Shown here: one piece after another, positions 41,945 through 47,486 of the stretch
Position numbering within the stretch: the stretch's first letter is position 1
Layout of the letters: every line of letters begins with the position of its first letter
Source: Chloroflexota bacterium
Lineage (GTDB): Bacteria; Chloroflexota; Anaerolineae; Anaerolineales; Villigracilaceae
Direction: 5' to 3'
Assembly (NCBI GenBank): GCA_024434165.1
Contig: QMIW01000024.1
Span: 1 to 47,486 of the forward strand
Length of the DNA: 47,486 nt
Translations under genes and position numbers: made by a program
Notes under the pieces: generated by a model
The model's database searches: none
What the model saw: the letters and a program-made list of their open reading frames with translations, nothing else
Told to the model about the DNA's origin: nothing

Positions 41945-43281
41945 AAATCGTCTACCTTGCAACCGGCGCGGCGAACATGTATTGCGGCAGCTGCATGCAC
42001 GATAATGCGCTCGCCGCCGGGATGAAGGATGCGGGCGAAGACGTCAGCCTGTTTACGTTGTACACGCCGATGCGTCTCGATGAAGAAGCGGTCGGCGAAA
42101 AGCAGATCCTTTACGGCGGCATCAAAGCCTACATGATGCAGCGCTTCCCGAATCCCTTCCCGGGGCGGGATTTGCTGATGCGCCTGGCGGGTTCGCAATT
42201 CCTGCACCGCCTGATGCCCCATTTCGACATCGGCTCGGCAGTGGACCCGGTGGCAAACGCCGAGTTGACCATTTCCATGCTGAGGGGCGAGCAGGGCAAC
42301 CAAAAGGAACTGCTGCAGGAACTCATCGAGTGGATTCGAAAACATTACCAGCCCGATGTCATCCACGTCACCAACGCGCTGATGATCGGCGTCGTCCGTG
42401 AATTGAAGCGTTCGCTGAACATCCCCATCACCTGCGGCTTGCACGGCGAAGACATTTTCCTCGAAGGCTTGCCGCCGCAATATCAGAACGAGGCGCTTGC
42501 CTTGATCCGCGACCGCGCGCACGACGTGGACCGCTTCCTCGCCATCAGTTCGTATTACGGCGACATGTTCTCGAAGTGGGTGGGCATTGACCCGGACAAG
42601 ATAGATGTGGTCTACCCGGGTATCGCCCTGAACGATTACCGCGATTTGACTCCCGACCCATCCGCCGCCCGCCCGCTGACGATTGGATTCCTCGCGCGCT
42701 TCGTCCCGGAAAAGGGGCTGCATCTGCTCGTGGATGCTTTTGCCACCCTTGTGCGTTCCGGCGAATTCCCCAACCTGCAGCTGCTCGCGGGCGGATACAT
42801 GAGCCGCGCCTACAAGACGTATATTGACGGCATCCGCAAGAAGATAAAAAGCAGCGGTCTCGAAGAGCGCATCCACCTGCTCGGCACGCTGGACCGCGCT
42901 CAAAAGTTGAACCTCTTCCGCCGGATGGATGTGTTCTCCGTCCCCGCGCCGTACCGCGAGCCAAAGGGAATCTCCATCCTTGAGGCGCTTGCCGCCGGCG
43001 TGCCGGTCGTCCAGCCGGAGCATGGCTCCTACCCCGAATGGATTCGAGCCACGCAGGGCGGTCTGCTGTGCCGGCCCAACGACAGCCTCGACCTGGCGGA
43101 GAAACTCGCCGTCCTCCTGCGCGACGCGGCGCTGCGCAAGCGGCTCGGCCGGCAGGGGCGGCAGGCGGTCTTTGAAAAATTCTCCTCTGAAGCCATGGCA
43201 TCCGCCACGCTGGATGTAATGCGGAAGTTGAAAGAACCGCAGGCAATCGCCTCCAAACTCCCCCTTGACGCATCTCGATGA
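41941..43281 (+). CDS. Family 4 glycosyltransferase (GT-B)
   Basis: 446 residues. The acceptor-side domain starts KIVYLATGAANMYCGSCMHD, with an unusual Cys pair (Cys15 and Cys18) beside the glycine loop. The donor-side domain has LTIGFLARFVPEKGLHLLVD, IHLLGTLDRAQKLNLFRRMD and VPAPYREPKGISILEALAAG, where EPKGISILEA is the GT4 donor motif. The -35 element of the aromatic operon lies in its last codons. Coupled to the preceding methyltransferase, it could glycosylate a lipid or other small acceptor. Confidence 0.87.
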   Translation: MKIVYLATGAANMYCGSCMHDNALAAGMKDAGEDVSLFTLYTPMRLDEEAVGEKQILYGGIKAYMMQRFPNPFPGRDLLMRLAGSQFLHRLMPHFDIGSAVDPVANAELTISMLRGEQGNQKELLQELIEWIRKHYQPDVIHVTNALMIGVVRELKRSLNIPITCGLHGEDIFLEGLPPQYQNEALALIRDRAHDVDRFLAISSYYGDMFSKWVGIDPDKIDVVYPGIALNDYRDLTPDPSAARPLTIGFLARFVPEKGLHLLVDAFATLVRSGEFPNLQLLAGGYMSRAYKTYIDGIRKKIKSSGLEERIHLLGTLDRAQKLNLFRRMDVFSVPAPYREPKGISILEALAAGVPVVQPEHGSYPEWIRATQGGLLCRPNDSLDLAEKLAVLLRDAALRKRLGRQGRQAVFEKFSSEAMASATLDVMRKLKEPQAIASKLPLDASR

Positions 43282-43293
43282 CAGGCATAGAAT
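43265..43293 (+). promoter_or_regulatory. Strong sigma-70 type promoter of the aromatic operon
   Basis: TTGACG at 43265-43270, exactly 17 bases, then TAGAAT at 43288-43293. The -35 overlaps the 3' end of the upstream glycosyltransferase gene. Transcription would begin at about 43300, only a few bases before the ATG of the leader ORF at 43304. Confidence 0.75.
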
Positions 43294-43303
43294 AGCGCCC
43301 AAT

Positions 43304-43381
43304 ATGCTTAAGTCCGCCCGCTGGTTTGCGTTTTATTTTTATTACGGTTTCCGAGGTTCGGTTGCCGTTGGTGGCGCTTAA
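43304..43381 (+). CDS. Aromatic-rich leader peptide of the aro operon
   Basis: A 25-codon ORF (ATG 43304, TAA 43379-43381). Residues 7-16 read WFAFYFYYGF: one Trp, four Phe and three Tyr, eight of ten aromatic. The second half (residues 17-25) is plain Arg, Gly, Ser, Val and Ala. It lies between a consensus-like promoter and a strong terminator hairpin, and the genes beyond that make chorismate and tyrosine/phenylalanine precursors. This is the layout of amino acid attenuation: ribosome stalling at the aromatic codons when charged tRNA is scarce would favour read-through. There is no ribosome binding site and the start codon lies about 3-4 bases from the predicted transcription start, so translation would be leaderless. 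An alternative antiterminator fold was not resolved by eye. Confidence 0.78.
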   Translation: MLKSARWFAFYFYYGFRGSVAVGGA

Positions 43382-43409
43382 GTAAACAGAGATTAAACCT
43401 GTTCACCTA

Positions 43410-43445
43410 AAGAGCGAGACCACGACGGTCTCGCTCTTTTATTTT
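43410..43445 (+). terminator. Attenuator terminator hairpin
   Basis: A perfect 12-bp stem (43410-43421 with 43427-43438, AAGAGCGAGACC paired to GGTCTCGCTCTT) with a 5-base loop, followed by a T-rich run TTTTATTTT. It lies 28 bases after the leader-peptide stop and 64 bases before aroH. Confidence 0.85.
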
Positions 43446-43508
43446 CTCCTCGCTTCCCCCTTTTCCAAAAATGGGAGAGGGCCGGGGTGAGAGTTTTAGG
43501 AGACCCTT

Positions 43509-43880
43509 ATGCCCATCCGTGGAATTCGCGGCGCGACCACCGCCGCCGCAGACGAGCCCGAACTCATCCTCGAAGCCACCCGCGAACTGCTCGAGGAAAT
43601 CCTCGCCGAAAACAGCGACATGCGCCCCGAAGACATTGCCAGCGCCTTCTTCACCGTCACCGACGACCTCGCCTCCACCTTCCCGGCGCAGGCAGCCCGC
43701 CAAATGGGCTGGGACCTCGTCCCGATGCTGTGCGCGCGTGAAATCCCCGTGCCGGGCAGCCTGCCCAGGGTGATTCGCGTGCTCGTTCATTGGAACACGG
43801 AAGTACTACAATCAGAAGTGACGCACGTCTATTTGCGTGACGCCGTAAGGCTAAGACCCGATTTGGTCTCGGCGCAGTGA
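43509..43880 (+). CDS. aroH: Chorismate mutase, AroH type
   Basis: 123 residues, the normal length of the monofunctional AroH family (Bacillus type). RGIRGATTAAADEPELILEA at the N terminus carries the conserved Arg-Gly segment, followed by IASAFFTVTDDLASTFPAQA, MGWDLVPMLCAREIPVPGSL and RVIRVLVHWNT, the ordered motifs of the trimeric alpha/beta enzyme. It converts chorismate to prephenate. AGGAG precedes the ATG. A CCCCTTTTCC/GGGAGAGGG inverted segment related to the core of the family 1 element lies between the attenuator and this gene. A period-eight array begins four bases after its stop. Confidence 0.9.
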   Translation: MPIRGIRGATTAAADEPELILEATRELLEEILAENSDMRPEDIASAFFTVTDDLASTFPAQAARQMGWDLVPMLCAREIPVPGSLPRVIRVLVHWNTEVLQSEVTHVYLRDAVRLRPDLVSAQ

Positions 43881-43883
43881 GAG

Positions 43884-43990
43884 TGTAAAAACGTACACAC
43901 GTACACATGTAAACACGTAGACACGCTCCACTATCTTGTGTACCTGTATACCTGTCTACCTATATACCTGCGTACTTGCATACCTGCCTG
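43884..43990. repeat. Eight-base periodic array with two inverted arms
   Basis: The left arm (43884-43923) has five units (TGTAAAAA, CGTACACA twice, TGTAAACA, CGTAGACA). The right arm (43935-43990) has seven units (CTTGTGTA, CCTGTATA, CCTGTCTA and so on) at exact eight-base steps. The arms are inverted relative to each other (TACACA against TGTGTA) and flank an 11-base centre. It fills nearly all of the aroH-aroF gap. Confidence 0.75.
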
Positions 43991-44012
43991 CTTTCCACAA
44001 GGAGAAACCACC

Positions 44013-45059
44013 ATGATCATCATAATGAAATCCAACTACACCCCGCAGCAACTCGAAGCCGTCGTTGCGGCTGTCCGCGCGCACGGATTGACCCCGCACA
44101 TCACCTACGGGGTCGAGACCGCCATCGTTGCCGCTGTCGGGGAGTTCCATGTCTCGTCGCTGGACCCGTTCGAAGTCCTCGAAGGAGTCGAGAGCGTGAA
44201 GCGCATCTCCCAGCCGTTCAAACTCGGCTCGCGCCAGGTCCACCCCCAGAATACCGTCTTCCCCATTGACGGCTTCAGCGTCGGCGGCGAGGACATCGTC
44301 CTGATCGCAGGACCGTGCGCGGTGGAGTCGCGCAGCCAGATTTTGGAAACCGCTCACGCGGTGAGAGAGGCGGGCGCGAACGCCCTGCGCGGCGGGGTCT
44401 TCAAACCGCGCACATCCCCATACTCGTTCCAGGGTCTCGGCGAGGAGGGGCTCGAATATCTCGCCGAGGCGCGCGAGCAGACGGGCATGCCCATCGTGGT
44501 CGAGATCATGTCGCAGACCCAGCTCGAACTCATGCTGAACTATGTGGATGTCTTTCAAGTCGGCGCGCGCAACATGCAAAACTTCAACCTCCTGCGCGCG
44601 CTCGGTGAAACGCGCAAGACGGTGCTGCTCAAACGCGGCTTGAGCGCGACCATCGAGGAACTGCTCATGTCCGCCGAATATCTTCTCGCGGGCGGCAACA
44701 AGCAGGTCATCCTGTGCGAACGCGGCATCCGCACGTTCGAGACCTCCACGCGCAACACCACCGACATCAACGCGATTCCCGTTTTGAAACATCTTACGCA
44801 CCTGCCCGTCATCCTCGACCCGTCGCACGCCACCGGCCACGCCGATTACGTCGCCGCGATTGCGCGCGCCGCCATTGCCGCAGGCGCCGACGGGCTCATC
44901 GTCGAGGTCCACCCCGATCCCGCCCATGCGGTTTCCGACGGCAAGCAATCGCTCAAGCCCGAAAAGTTCGCCGAGATGGTCAAACAAGTCAAAGCCATTG
45001 CCGAGGTCATGGGGCGCCGCATCGCACCCATCAGGAAGTCCGTTGCGGTTGGATGGTAA
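44013..45059 (+). CDS. aroF: 3-deoxy-7-phosphoheptulonate synthase (type I-beta, with N-terminal regulatory domain)
   Basis: 348 residues. Residues 1-70 form a ferredoxin-like domain ([20 protein letters not shown]) as in the Thermotoga-type DAHP synthases, where it confers feedback control by aromatic amino acids. The barrel has [77 protein letters not shown] and [13 protein letters not shown]. It condenses phosphoenolpyruvate with erythrose 4-phosphate. ATG 44013 follows AAGGAGA; the frame is open further upstream through the periodic array, which is not protein-like. Confidence 0.94.
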
Positions 45060-45061
45060 TC

Positions 45062-45940
45062 ATGGAGGATGGCTTTTCGCTGAAGGATTCGACCGTTGGG
45101 ATCGTTGGATTGGGACTCATGGGCGGTTCGCTCGCCATGAGCCTGAAAGGGAAGTGTGCCCGCCTGATCGGATACGATACGCATCCTCCCACGCTCGAAG
45201 TTGCTCTTTCCAAAGGAATCGTTGACCACGCTGAGATGTTATTCCCCTCTCCCACAGGGGGAGGGGAAAGGGGAGAGGGCAAAGTCAACCTCCTCATCCT
45301 TGCGACACCTGTGCCTTCTATCGTCAACTTTCTCCAACAGTTATCGGTCTCTGAGCTCAAATCCCCGATCATCATCCTGGACATCGGCTCCACAAAACGC
45401 GACATCCTTCGAGCCATGTCTGCCCTGCCCGAAAACTTCGACCCCCTCGGCGGGCATCCCATTTGCGGCAGGGAAAAACTCGGTTTGGAAAATGCGGACG
45501 CTAACTTATATCAAAACGCGCCATTCGTCATCACTCCTCTTGAACGCACCACGCAACACGCACTACGCATCGCTCGGCAGCTTGTCTCAGCCCTCGGCGC
45601 AAAATATATTGAAATGAACGCCGACGATCACGACCGCATCCTTGCCTCCACGAGTCACCTGCCTTTTTTGCTGGCATCCGCCCTTGTCCATTCCACTGCG
45701 CATGACTTTGCTCCCCTCACCGGACCCGGCTTCCGCTCGACATCCCGCCTCGCAGGGACTCCTTCAAGCATGATGTTGGGAATTCTCAAATCCAATCGAG
45801 ATAATGTTCTAAGTGCATTGTCCGCATTTCAAGAGCAACTTGCTCGAATCAAACTCTCGCTCATGGCTGAAGATTACACGGCGCTCGAAAACATTCTCAA
45901 CCAATCCCAAGCCGACTATCTTGCACTGGTGGATGGGTAG
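45062..45940 (+). CDS. tyrA: Prephenate dehydrogenase
   Basis: 292 residues from ATG 45062 (295 from an in-frame ATG at 45053 that overlaps the aroF stop). STVGIVGLGLMGGSLAMSLK is the NAD-binding motif; LILATPVPSIVNFLQQL, ILDIGSTKRDI, DPLGGHPICGREKLGLENA (catalytic His region) and DHDRILASTSHLPFLLASAL follow in family order. It oxidises prephenate to 4-hydroxyphenylpyruvate. Between ALSKGIVDHAEML and VNLLILATP lies FPSPTGGGERGEGK, encoded by DNA at about 45239-45285 that matches the CCCTCTCCC/GGGGAGAGGG repeat core seen in non-coding DNA here; homologues usually have a short plain loop. The TAG stop belongs to a periodic array unit. Confidence 0.9.
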   Translation: MEDGFSLKDSTVGIVGLGLMGGSLAMSLKGKCARLIGYDTHPPTLEVALSKGIVDHAEMLFPSPTGGGERGEGKVNLLILATPVPSIVNFLQQLSVSELKSPIIILDIGSTKRDILRAMSALPENFDPLGGHPICGREKLGLENADANLYQNAPFVITPLERTTQHALRIARQLVSALGAKYIEMNADDHDRILASTSHLPFLLASALVHSTAHDFAPLTGPGFRSTSRLAGTPSSMMLGILKSNRDNVLSALSAFQEQLARIKLSLMAEDYTALENILNQSQADYLALVDG

Positions 45941-46015
45941 ACAGGTACACACGGAAACAGGTACACAAGTCTCCAATCGCTAATTCTCCAATTCTCTCTT
46001 CCACCAATTACTTCC
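45936..46015. repeat. Periodic arrays (eight-base, then seven-base) between tyrA and aroA
   Basis: Four units of eight (GGTAGACA, GGTACACA, CGGAAACA, GGTACACA), starting inside the last codons of tyrA so that TAG is part of the first unit, are followed by six units of seven (GTCTCCA, ATCGCTA, ATTCTCC, AATTCTC and so on) up to the aroA start. No ribosome binding site for aroA can be seen in it. Confidence 0.65.
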
Positions 46016-47392
46016 ATGCGTATCCTCCCCATCCTCCATCCCCTCAACGCCGCCGTCCGTGTGCCTGGTTCGAAGTCCCTCACCAACCGCGCCTTGTTGG
46101 TTGCCGCCCTCGCAAATGGACAAACCCGCCTCGTCAACGCGCTCTTCTCCGACGACTCGCGCTACTTTGCCCAAGCCCTGCAAACCCTCGGCTTTGACGT
46201 TCAACTTGACGAAGCCGCCTCCGAAATGACCGTCACCGGGTTGGGCGGGAAAATCCCGGCAAAGAAGGCTGAACTTTTCATCGGCAATGCAGGGACAGCC
46301 GCCCGGTTTCTCTCCGCGTTTCTCACGCTCGGCAGCGGCGAATACATTCTCGACGGCGATGCCAGGATGCGCGAACGCCCCATCGGCGATTTGGTGGAAT
46401 CTTTGTCTCATTTGGGTTGCAGCATTCGACCAGTGAAACAAGAGGACGATAGACCATTGACCGCAGACCATCGTCCCCCGTCCATGGTCCATGGTCAAAT
46501 TTCCCCTCCCCTCAAAATCATCGCCTCGGGCCTCCCCGGCGGAAAGACCAAAATCGCAGGCAGCATCTCCTCCCAATTCCTCTCCGCCCTGCTCATGGTC
46601 GCTCCCTACGCCCGGACTCCCATCGAAATCGAACTCACCACCGACCTCAACTCCAAACCCTACGTGGACATGACCCTGGCCGTCATGCGGGACTTCGGTG
46701 TGGAAGTGAAACGCAGCGGCTATCAATCCTTCTCCGTGCCAATTACTACTTACCAATTACCAATTCCCAATCTCCAGTCTCTAAGCGCTGCTTCTCCAGG
46801 TCTCAAATTATCCCCCTCAAACTACACCATCGAAAGTGATGCCTCCGCCGCCTCCTACTTCTTCGCCGCGCCAGCCATCTGCGGCGGGACAGTGAAAGTG
46901 AAAAACATCTCGCGCAATTCAAAGCAGGGCGATATTGCCTTCCTCGATATACTTCAAAAAATGGGTTGTACGGTGACCGAGTCAGATAACTCGATCATGG
47001 TCCATCGTCCATCGTCCATCGCCGGGCTTGACATAAACATGCGCGATATCCCGGATACCGCCCAGACCCTTGCCGCCATTGCGCCGTTTGCGGCATCCCC
47101 CACACGGATTCGCGGCATCGCCTCCGCCCGCCTCAAAGAAACGGACCGCATCCATGCAGCCTGCACCGAACTGGGGAGACTCGGCGTCCGCGTGGAGGAG
47201 CATGAAGATGGAATGACCATCTATCCCGTCGAAACGATGCGTCCCGCCGTCATCCAGACTTACAACGATCACCGCATGGCGATGGCGTTCTCACTCATCG
47301 GTCTGCGCTTCGACGGCGTCACAATTGAAAATCCGTCCTGCGTCTCAAAGACCTTTCCCGATTTTTTCCAGGTTTTAGAATCGTTGCGTTAA
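46016..47392 (+). CDS. aroA: 3-phosphoshikimate 1-carboxyvinyltransferase (EPSP synthase)
   Basis: 458 residues, about 30 longer than usual. VPGSKSLTNRALLVAALANG, FIGNAGTAARFLSAFLTLG, DGDARMRERPIGDLVESLSH, SSQFLSALLMVAPYA, ESDASAASYFFAAPAI, DIPDTAQTLAAIAPFAA and RLKETDRIHA are the ordered family motifs, so the enzyme joins shikimate 3-phosphate and phosphoenolpyruvate. Three stretches of seven-base periodic DNA lie inside the frame: 46445-46500, 46740-46781 and 46993-47020. They encode loops between conserved motifs and account for the extra length. The 42-base insert is a multiple of three. The TAA stop is supplied by the TTAA end of a family 2 element. An ATG with no clear ribosome binding site suggests coupling to tyrA. 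Confidence 0.92.
   Translation: MRILPILHPLNAAVRVPGSKSLTNRALLVAALANGQTRLVNALFSDDSRYFAQALQTLGFDVQLDEAASEMTVTGLGGKIPAKKAELFIGNAGTAARFLSAFLTLGSGEYILDGDARMRERPIGDLVESLSHLGCSIRPVKQEDDRPLTADHRPPSMVHGQISPPLKIIASGLPGGKTKIAGSISSQFLSALLMVAPYARTPIEIELTTDLNSKPYVDMTLAVMRDFGVEVKRSGYQSFSVPITTYQLPIPNLQSLSAASPGLKLSPSNYTIESDASAASYFFAAPAICGGTVKVKNISRNSKQGDIAFLDILQKMGCTVTESDNSIMVHRPSSIAGLDINMRDIPDTAQTLAAIAPFAASPTRIRGIASARLKETDRIHAACTELGRLGVRVEEHEDGMTIYPVETMRPAVIQTYNDHRMAMAFSLIGLRFDGVTIENPSCVSKTFPDFFQVLESLR
46445..46500. repeat. Seven-base periodic array inside aroA
   Basis: Eight units at seven-base spacing switch midway from a GACC-type (GACCATT, GACCATC) to the complementary GTCC-type (GTCCATG twice), forming an inverted array. 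It shares its consensus with the array at 39022-39110. It is translated as part of a loop of about 19 residues. Confidence 0.7.
46740..46781. repeat. Second seven-base periodic array inside aroA
   Basis: Six units at seven-base spacing (CAATTAC, TACTTAC, CAATTAC, CAATTCC, CAATCTC, CAGTCTC), 42 bases in all and so frame-neutral. It encodes the stretch around ITTYQLPIPNLQSL, which has no counterpart in typical EPSP synthases. Confidence 0.7.
46993..47020. repeat. Third seven-base periodic array inside aroA
   Basis: GATCATG is followed by three copies of GTCCATC at exact seven-base spacing. It encodes part of a loop before GLDINMRDIPD and has the same unit as the array at 39022-39110. Confidence 0.6.
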
Positions 47393-47486
47393 GTAGTCGG
47401 TCGAAATAAATTTTACAAAAATACGCTCCCGGCGGCGTCCCCGCCGCCGAGGACGGCGGCATGAGCAGGAATTTGTTTTCTAAAAA
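47389..47486. mobile_element. TTAA-ended GC-hairpin element, family 2, copy C (cut by the window end)
   Basis: It starts GTTAAGTAGTCGGTCG at the aroA stop codon, continues with the same A+T segment (AAATAAATTTTACAAAAA), the GC-rich core and the GGAATTTGTTTTCTAAAAA segment found in copies A and B, and is still incomplete at 47486. Its first TTAA contains the TAA of aroA. Confidence 0.72.

Follow-up and report, generated by a model that had tools for sequence, protein, structure and literature searches.

An aromatic-rich leader ORF and a terminator precede the aroH-aroF-tyrA-aroA operon in the window, the whole stretch of 47,486 nt analysed here, which belongs to a 4.4-Mb genome of the Anaerolineales in 173 contigs. 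Judged from sequence and folding models, this leader is very probably a ribosome-mediated transcription attenuator that would tune expression of the operon to how much charged aromatic tRNA is available. The promoter match, the ORF, the terminator, the operon, their conservation, the retained aromatic codons and a species-matched antiterminator were obtained by computation; transcription start, translation, stalling and read-through are what we infer.

Layout of the leader and the operon

A sigma-70-type promoter sequence, TTGACG-17-TAGAAT, lies at 43265-43293 on the forward strand, as the initial annotation had it, with 10 of 12 consensus matches. It was the top scorer of four promoter-like sites in a pattern scan of 42000-47486. 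This local scan is weak alone, since it returned five terminator-like sites against 5.8 expected and four promoter-like sites against 2.2. The leader ORF (MLKSARWFAFYFYYGFRGSVAVGGA; 43304-43381, forward strand) starts at the ATG at 43304 and stops at the TAA at 43379-43381. As described originally, its 25 codons carry eight aromatic residues within codons 7-16 (W7, F8, F10, Y11, F12, Y13, Y14 and F16), and Trp, Phe and Tyr are all present. The regulatory codons are 43322-43351. The ATG is positioned 10 nt past the -10 box. Because of the promoter match and this spacing, a 5' UTR of about 0-4 nt is suggested, and the leader ORF is probably carried on a nearly leaderless message.

The intrinsic terminator occupies 43409-43439 on the forward strand, with arms at 43409-43421 and 43427-43439 and a loop of 5. 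The stem is followed by TATTTT, and the T-rich tail reaches 43445. The terminator and its T run had been noted before as a perfect 12-bp structure; the stem has in fact 13 pairs. Just past the aromatic run, a small hairpin of 7 pairs (CGGU..CCG / CGG..GCCG; 43345-43367, forward strand) is predicted within the ORF, with compensatory changes at one of the seven pairs, in 2 of 47 genus sequences.

The four downstream genes, whose assignments were borne out by Pfam, are on the same strand: aroH, chorismate mutase type I (43509-43880; PF07736, E 2.1e-45); an aroF-type DAHP synthase gene (44013-45059, ATG at 44013; PF00793, E 3.5e-81); tyrA, prephenate dehydrogenase (45062-45940; PF02153, E 4.4e-24); and aroA, EPSP synthase (46016-47392; PF00275, E 1.8e-117). 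The stretch 43442-43500 between the terminator and aroH, with TGGGAGAGGGCCGGGGTGAG at 43472-43491, looks like a dispersed repeat, and the spacer between terminator and aroH varies among relatives. A motif like TGGGAGAGGGCCGGGGTGAG seems to be read through within tyrA (SPTGGGERGEG). No second copy of TGGGAGAGGGCCGGGGTGAG was found in the window with up to 3 mismatches allowed, and 43472-43491 is the sole copy.

In the proposed mechanism, transcription would begin a few bases before the ATG. When aromatic amino acids are plentiful, the ribosome would reach the stop codon and occupy segment 2 (43370-43389), and the terminator would form. When charged Trp, Phe or Tyr tRNA is short, the ribosome would stall at codons 7-16 and cover segment 1 (43305-43318), the 5' arm of a putative protector hairpin. 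Segment 2 would then be free to capture the 5' arm of the terminator as an antiterminator, and the polymerase would read on. If there is no translation, segment 1 would pair with segment 2 and the terminator would form again. A response to each individual amino acid is inferred.

As another explanation we considered that a T-box, a riboswitch or an RNA-binding protein causes the attenuation and that the ORF is secondary. A T-box is present in the same genome before trpE (L205:2097-2452, reverse strand; Rfam RF00230, 80.3 bits, E 5e-17), detected in a permissive scan at a score below the gathering score of 93; none was detected at the gathering score. In our reading, UGG would stand at its specifier position. 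A permissive Rfam scan of 43200-43560 gave weak matches, the best being a plastid 3'-UTR family over the terminator (28.4 bits, gathering 55.8; E 0.0016), and no T-box. No Rfam family, amino-acid leaders included, reached its gathering score in the whole window (0 matches), and the conserved part is the ORF with the aromatic codons. With these results such a sensor at aroH is highly improbable. One genome thus seems to hold two kinds of RNA sensor, for the trp genes and for the common aromatic genes.

No convincing aromatic leader was found for trpE or pheA of the same genome in the ORF and terminator scan. There pheA is preceded by an aminotransferase gene, and the sole same-strand scan matches (L206:49 and 109, which share a frame) resemble the tail of the gene in front of that aminotransferase gene.

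Distribution of the leader and chance controls

In the genus, aroH is present in 52 of 57 genomes, and the sample consisted of 50 aroH loci, the window's own included. The leader was detected in 47 of them; in the other three (L010, L022 and L044) the sequence breaks off 106-170 nt ahead of aroH. Relatives without the ORF had been named in the initial annotation as evidence that would count against an attenuator. Within the genus this check favours the attenuator: all 47 loci that have enough upstream sequence carry the leader, and so does an additional genus locus, G045.

A covariance model built from the 47 genus leaders gave one strong match (E <= 1e-23) per genome in 50 of the 57 genomes. 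The remaining matches were far weaker (E 1e-6 to 0.1); many covered the terminator part alone and some were full-length. A match at E <= 0.1 was obtained in 32/32 of the genomes with a completeness of 90% or more and a contamination of 5% or less. The promoter spacer is 17 in 45 of the 47 leaders. The distance from the end of the -10 box to the start codon is 10 nt in 43, 8 nt in 3 and 13 nt in 1, the last being most likely L019, in which the scan took as start the TTG directly after the ATG.

Eight genus regions with weak model matches were searched for a second copy of the leader with the cut loosened to at least four aromatics. In five of them no ORF with a terminator was found under this loosened cut. 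L270 and L272 gave both elements with peptides unlike this leader, and the ORF and terminator of L271 were A+T-rich and chance-like. In L270 and L272 a terminator of the same GAGACC type stands behind another hydrophobic short ORF (MAFVSA.FAFIPLLFASFWTV.LVRKTRTFS).

In the class, aroH was found in 144 of 199 genomes. The class set comprised 140 places (80 + 60), of which one, G045, belongs to the window's genus. The scan required five or more aromatic residues within 10 codons of an ORF, and a terminator at most 110 nt downstream. Both elements were found before aroH in 54/80 and 26/60 places, that is, 80/140. The ORF was present in 64/80 and 46/60 places at this threshold, and in 59/80 and 42/60 (101/140) at 6/10 or more. 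Of the 60 places that failed, 30 have the ORF (at least 5/10) without an accepted terminator and 30 have no ORF. Over all three sets, which partly overlap, 157 of 200 loci passed.

Eight Chloroflexales loci have such an ORF, seven of these with a terminator accepted by the scan. The two Ktedonobacteria loci failed; one has a Tyr run YYYR and the other merely YYR. Nine aroH loci from Bacillota, Planctomycetota and cyanobacteria all failed, and one of these, L100, has a Trp-rich frame and no accepted terminator. The Anaerolineales loci L118 and L119 lack the leader, and in both aroH lies directly behind another frame. Short ORFs with YYYR, YYR and YYYYR occur before aroH in L103 and L124 (Ktedonobacteria) and in L106. 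By eye their architecture is different, with an inverted repeat (CCCTCTGGC/GCCAGAGGG in L124) beside, not overlapping, a GCAGAAGC terminator. At about 25 listed places in class genomes, AroH lies inside an open frame of about 420-550 codons, which may be an enzyme fusion.

Dinucleotide shuffles of the first 80 class loci, in five sets, gave the ORF with a terminator in 0/80 each, whichever aromatic cut-off was applied, against 54 in the real loci at 5/10 or more. For the ORF alone at 6/10 or more, the counts were 59/80 real and 0 in every shuffled set; at 5/10 or more they were 64/80 real and 1, 1, 5, 1 and 1. These controls bear on a simple explanation of the locus: a glycosyltransferase gene on the same strand stops at 43281, 128 nt ahead of the terminator, which could merely end that gene while the aromatic ORF is there by chance. 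However, a glycosyltransferase homologue is upstream in 7 of 116 loci, the window's own counted, and in 95 leader-positive loci, a number that includes some duplicate records, none lies within the 0.6-2.5 kb examined. The leader and terminator layout travels with aroH, not with the upstream glycosyltransferase. Since the shuffled loci, moreover, never combined an aromatic ORF with a terminator, we regard this explanation as almost certainly wrong.

Antiterminator folding and ribosome states

The initial annotation had recognized the layout of ribosome-mediated attenuation, which is supported by its association with aroH, by codons that stay aromatic and by the antiterminator described below. 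It had not established an antiterminator. We folded the window leader, cut before the 3' arm of the terminator, in three ribosome states. With no ribosome, segment 1 (43305-43318) is paired to 43370-43384. When a ribosome sits on the regulatory codons and no RNA behind it is free, segment 2 (43370-43389, across the leader stop codon) pairs with segment 3 (43399-43421, overlapping the 5' arm of the terminator; all segments on the forward strand). This predicted antiterminator consists of the pairs GGU/ACC, CGCUU/GAGCG, GU/AC and AACAG/CUGUU. With the ribosome on the stop codon the antiterminator is lost, and the RNA behind the ribosome partly pairs with the terminator arm. In these folds, stalling at Trp codon 7 leaves the antiterminator free. 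The pairings suggested earlier (43354-43358 with 43396-43400, and 43370-43374 with 43403-43407) were not those chosen by the folds. Two further pairings seen by eye were also dropped: GGUUUC (43346-43351) with GAGACC sits where the stalled ribosome lies, and GCCGUUGG with the terminator loop is clearest in L092 and L122; in both cases the window folds picked other pairs.

The full window leader folds far better than its shuffles (z -5.7). For a wider comparison, 84 divergent leaders (less than about 75% identity in ungapped comparison) were chosen from the 157 that passed the scan; their folding-energy z averages -1.74. At least 6 bases of the terminator 5' arm were paired upstream in 83/84 with the ribosome in mid-run versus 24/84 with the ribosome at the stop codon, the RNA behind the ribosome being removed in both states.

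The species-by-species match of antiterminator and terminator was analysed by swapping terminators among the 84 leaders. The energy sum for matched antiterminators was -1383.7 versus a permuted mean of -1147.6 (sd 21.5), and 0 of 10,000 permutations were as low. In the 57 leaders without GAGACC or GAGGCC terminators the result was again 0 of 10,000. A shared base composition could favour matched pairs; nonetheless, the antiterminator strand still stands out from its dinucleotide shuffles (mean z -1.70; p <= 0.05 in 37/84 and p > 0.5 in 5). Against synonymous recoding the mean z was -1.09 (p <= 0.05 in 25/84 and p > 0.5 in 14). The own terminator was within the best 5% in 18/84, and in 28/84 more than half of the foreign terminators paired equally well. 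The matching is thus a strong collective signal that is not visible in every species.

In the genus alignment, RNAalifold found the terminator and the hairpin within the ORF. It did not find the antiterminator; the columns of that element hardly vary, and their alignment around the variable loop is poor. Of the two features that relatives had been expected to show, the aromatic codons are retained, whereas covariation for the antiterminator core was absent at the genus level, the core being nearly invariant.

The folding model separates the ribosome states under one assumption. If the RNA behind the ribosome is excluded, freeing the terminator arm costs on average 10.0 kcal/mol with a stalled ribosome and 3.2 with a ribosome at the stop codon (84 leaders), and the stalled value is the higher one in 82/84. 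If pairing across the ribosome is allowed, the means are 8.5 and 7.4, and stalled exceeds stop in 47/84 by energy and in 39/84 by paired fraction; for the window the order reverses (3.9 stalled versus 6.9 kcal/mol at the stop codon). In the model, therefore, stalled and finished ribosomes are well separated only if the RNA behind the ribosome cannot pair. The model needs trailing ribosomes or steric hindrance, which we assume. Without a ribosome, the arm in the window is nearly free (0.9 kcal/mol to open). Because it still costs a mean of 6.5 kcal/mol over the 84 leaders in this state, the protector state is, by these folds, not general among them.

Codon content, sensing range and known leaders

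Thirty-one Trp-containing leaders have 25 codons. Codons 10-13 are aromatic in 31/31 of these and swap Phe and Tyr (19:12, 12:19, 18:13 and 14:17), with TTT/TTC and TAT/TAC changes as well. In L045, L094 and L095 the frame differs past the aromatic run, so that the tail becomes RLPLVALK and similar, while the nucleotides near the stop codon are kept; the tails of L097, L098 and L207 are similarly shifted. From the interchange of Phe and Tyr and the change of frame behind the run, codons and RNA, not the peptide, seem to be under selection. The changed tails with retained stop-codon RNA make it unlikely that the peptide as such is the effector.

The same observations weigh on a nascent-chain arrest peptide like TnaC, which would sense free aromatic amino acid, not starvation. 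This explanation would lead one to expect what the genus shows, a hydrophobic aromatic peptide whose length is almost constant. TnaC-type arrest, however, requires a fixed residue order. In this leader Phe and Tyr are interchanged freely and tails are frame-switched, and leaders from other parts of the class differ in sequence. Furthermore, raising a biosynthetic operon amid plentiful product would be a response of the wrong sign. An arrest peptide is consequently very improbable here.

The initial annotation had proposed that one leader could sense Trp, Phe and Tyr. Sensing of all three fits the codons of this species and is not a general rule: Trp is present in 33 of 47 genus leaders, always at codon 7, and in 39 of the 84 representatives, the genus included. 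By codon content, the Phe and Tyr codons are the general part of the leaders, and Trp varies.

The attenuator may operate as described with only Phe, or Phe and Tyr, limitation mattering and the single Trp codon passive. Trp has one codon, which opens the run and is absent from 14 of the 47 genus leaders, and trpE has its own T-box. A similar case is the AroR leader of Corynebacterium glutamicum, which, according to passages of a review (PMC11802643), reacts when Phe is limiting but not when Tyr is. On the other side, Trp keeps the codon 7 position in 33/33 Trp-bearing genus leaders and also occurs in other class leaders, and in the fold the antiterminator stays free when the ribosome stalls at codon 7. 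We consider a passive Trp codon a serious possibility, albeit a rather doubtful one.

Leaders with and without Trp (L002-L098, L123) are intermixed on trees of the downstream genes. In the tree of aroH and DAHP synthase, which has 57 rows and extends to other genera, the Trp/no-Trp state needs 11 changes, at least 9 of them forced by well-supported branches. Grouping the 11 main-type no-Trp leaders together was rejected (p-AU 2e-10), the constrained group being defined by leader sequence though chosen after the aroH tree had been viewed. The tree program flagged long branches (L092, L106 and others) and unequal base composition. The tree of aroH only (67 rows) needs 14 changes, 8 of them forced. 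The sister loci L011 and L012 differ in leader type. We tentatively propose, as a reading that falls somewhat short of probable, that the aromatic attenuator is multivalent, extends to the level of the phylum and has a sensing range that can evolve as a module. Close relatives would many times have exchanged one leader type for the other, with or without Trp, through recombination or recurrent change. The common pathway would in this way be retuned between Phe/Tyr and Phe/Tyr/Trp control, while the T-box runs trpE.

In the E. coli trp and pheA leaders (TrpL and PheL), codons for the product in a leader ORF are combined with a protector, an antiterminator and a terminator, and each leader is tuned mainly to one amino acid. 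The present leader shares this arrangement and, by analogy, would work like trp-type attenuators. Unlike TrpL and PheL, it gathers Phe, Tyr and often Trp codons into a single run ahead of a common-pathway operon; judged by spacing, its 5' UTR is almost absent, and its host is from another phylum. The E. coli ilvGMEDA leader likewise senses several end products of a branched pathway, in that case the branched-chain amino acids, in Proteobacteria. In Sinorhizobium meliloti, the trpL (peTrpL) leader ORF of an attenuator lies right at the 5' end of the transcript. Our leader resembles it in this position, as judged by promoter spacing; S. meliloti belongs to another phylum and its leader senses Trp only. 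The protector, antiterminator and terminator scheme is also described, and the ilvGMEDA operon named as attenuated, in passages of PMC1183508.

The closest functional parallel that we saw is AroR, whose aromatic leader peptide (Phe-Tyr-Phe) precedes the DAHP synthase (aroF) operon of C. glutamicum and is ribosome-mediated according to the same passages of PMC11802643. Unlike AroR, which is actinobacterial, the present leader has eight aromatics including Trp and stands before aroH-aroF-tyrA-aroA; the likeness is functional and by description. The uORFC-13-1 motif before aroF, with 24 unique examples from Acholeplasma and environmental DNA and at least one Phe residue, is similar by description in that a Phe-coding uORF adjoins a terminator; no antiterminator is described for it in the relevant passages of PMC8632094.

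Among the full-text literature matches listed, none concerned leader-peptide attenuation in Chloroflexota; the comparative survey of Lopatovskaya et al. (2010) may mention it. In the passages concerned, a leader-gene survey calls its Chloroflexi diagram noise (PMC4833913), and a survey of riboswitches and T-boxes mentions the phylum Chloroflexi (PMC3766115). The authors of a 2010 survey (PMC2965389) write that they knew of demonstrated leader peptide systems in Proteobacteria and Actinobacteria only, and they add a case from Firmicutes. The present leader would represent a familiar class of attenuator whose input, a mixture of aromatic codons, is uncommon, and we found no earlier description of one in Chloroflexota.

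If this is true, Chloroflexota join the phyla with leader peptide systems, at the entry enzymes of the aromatic pathway. More than 100 natural variants in codon content, terminator sequence and frame are at hand. They make it testable how a leader chooses the amino acids that it senses, and how an antiterminator and a terminator coevolve inside a coding sequence.
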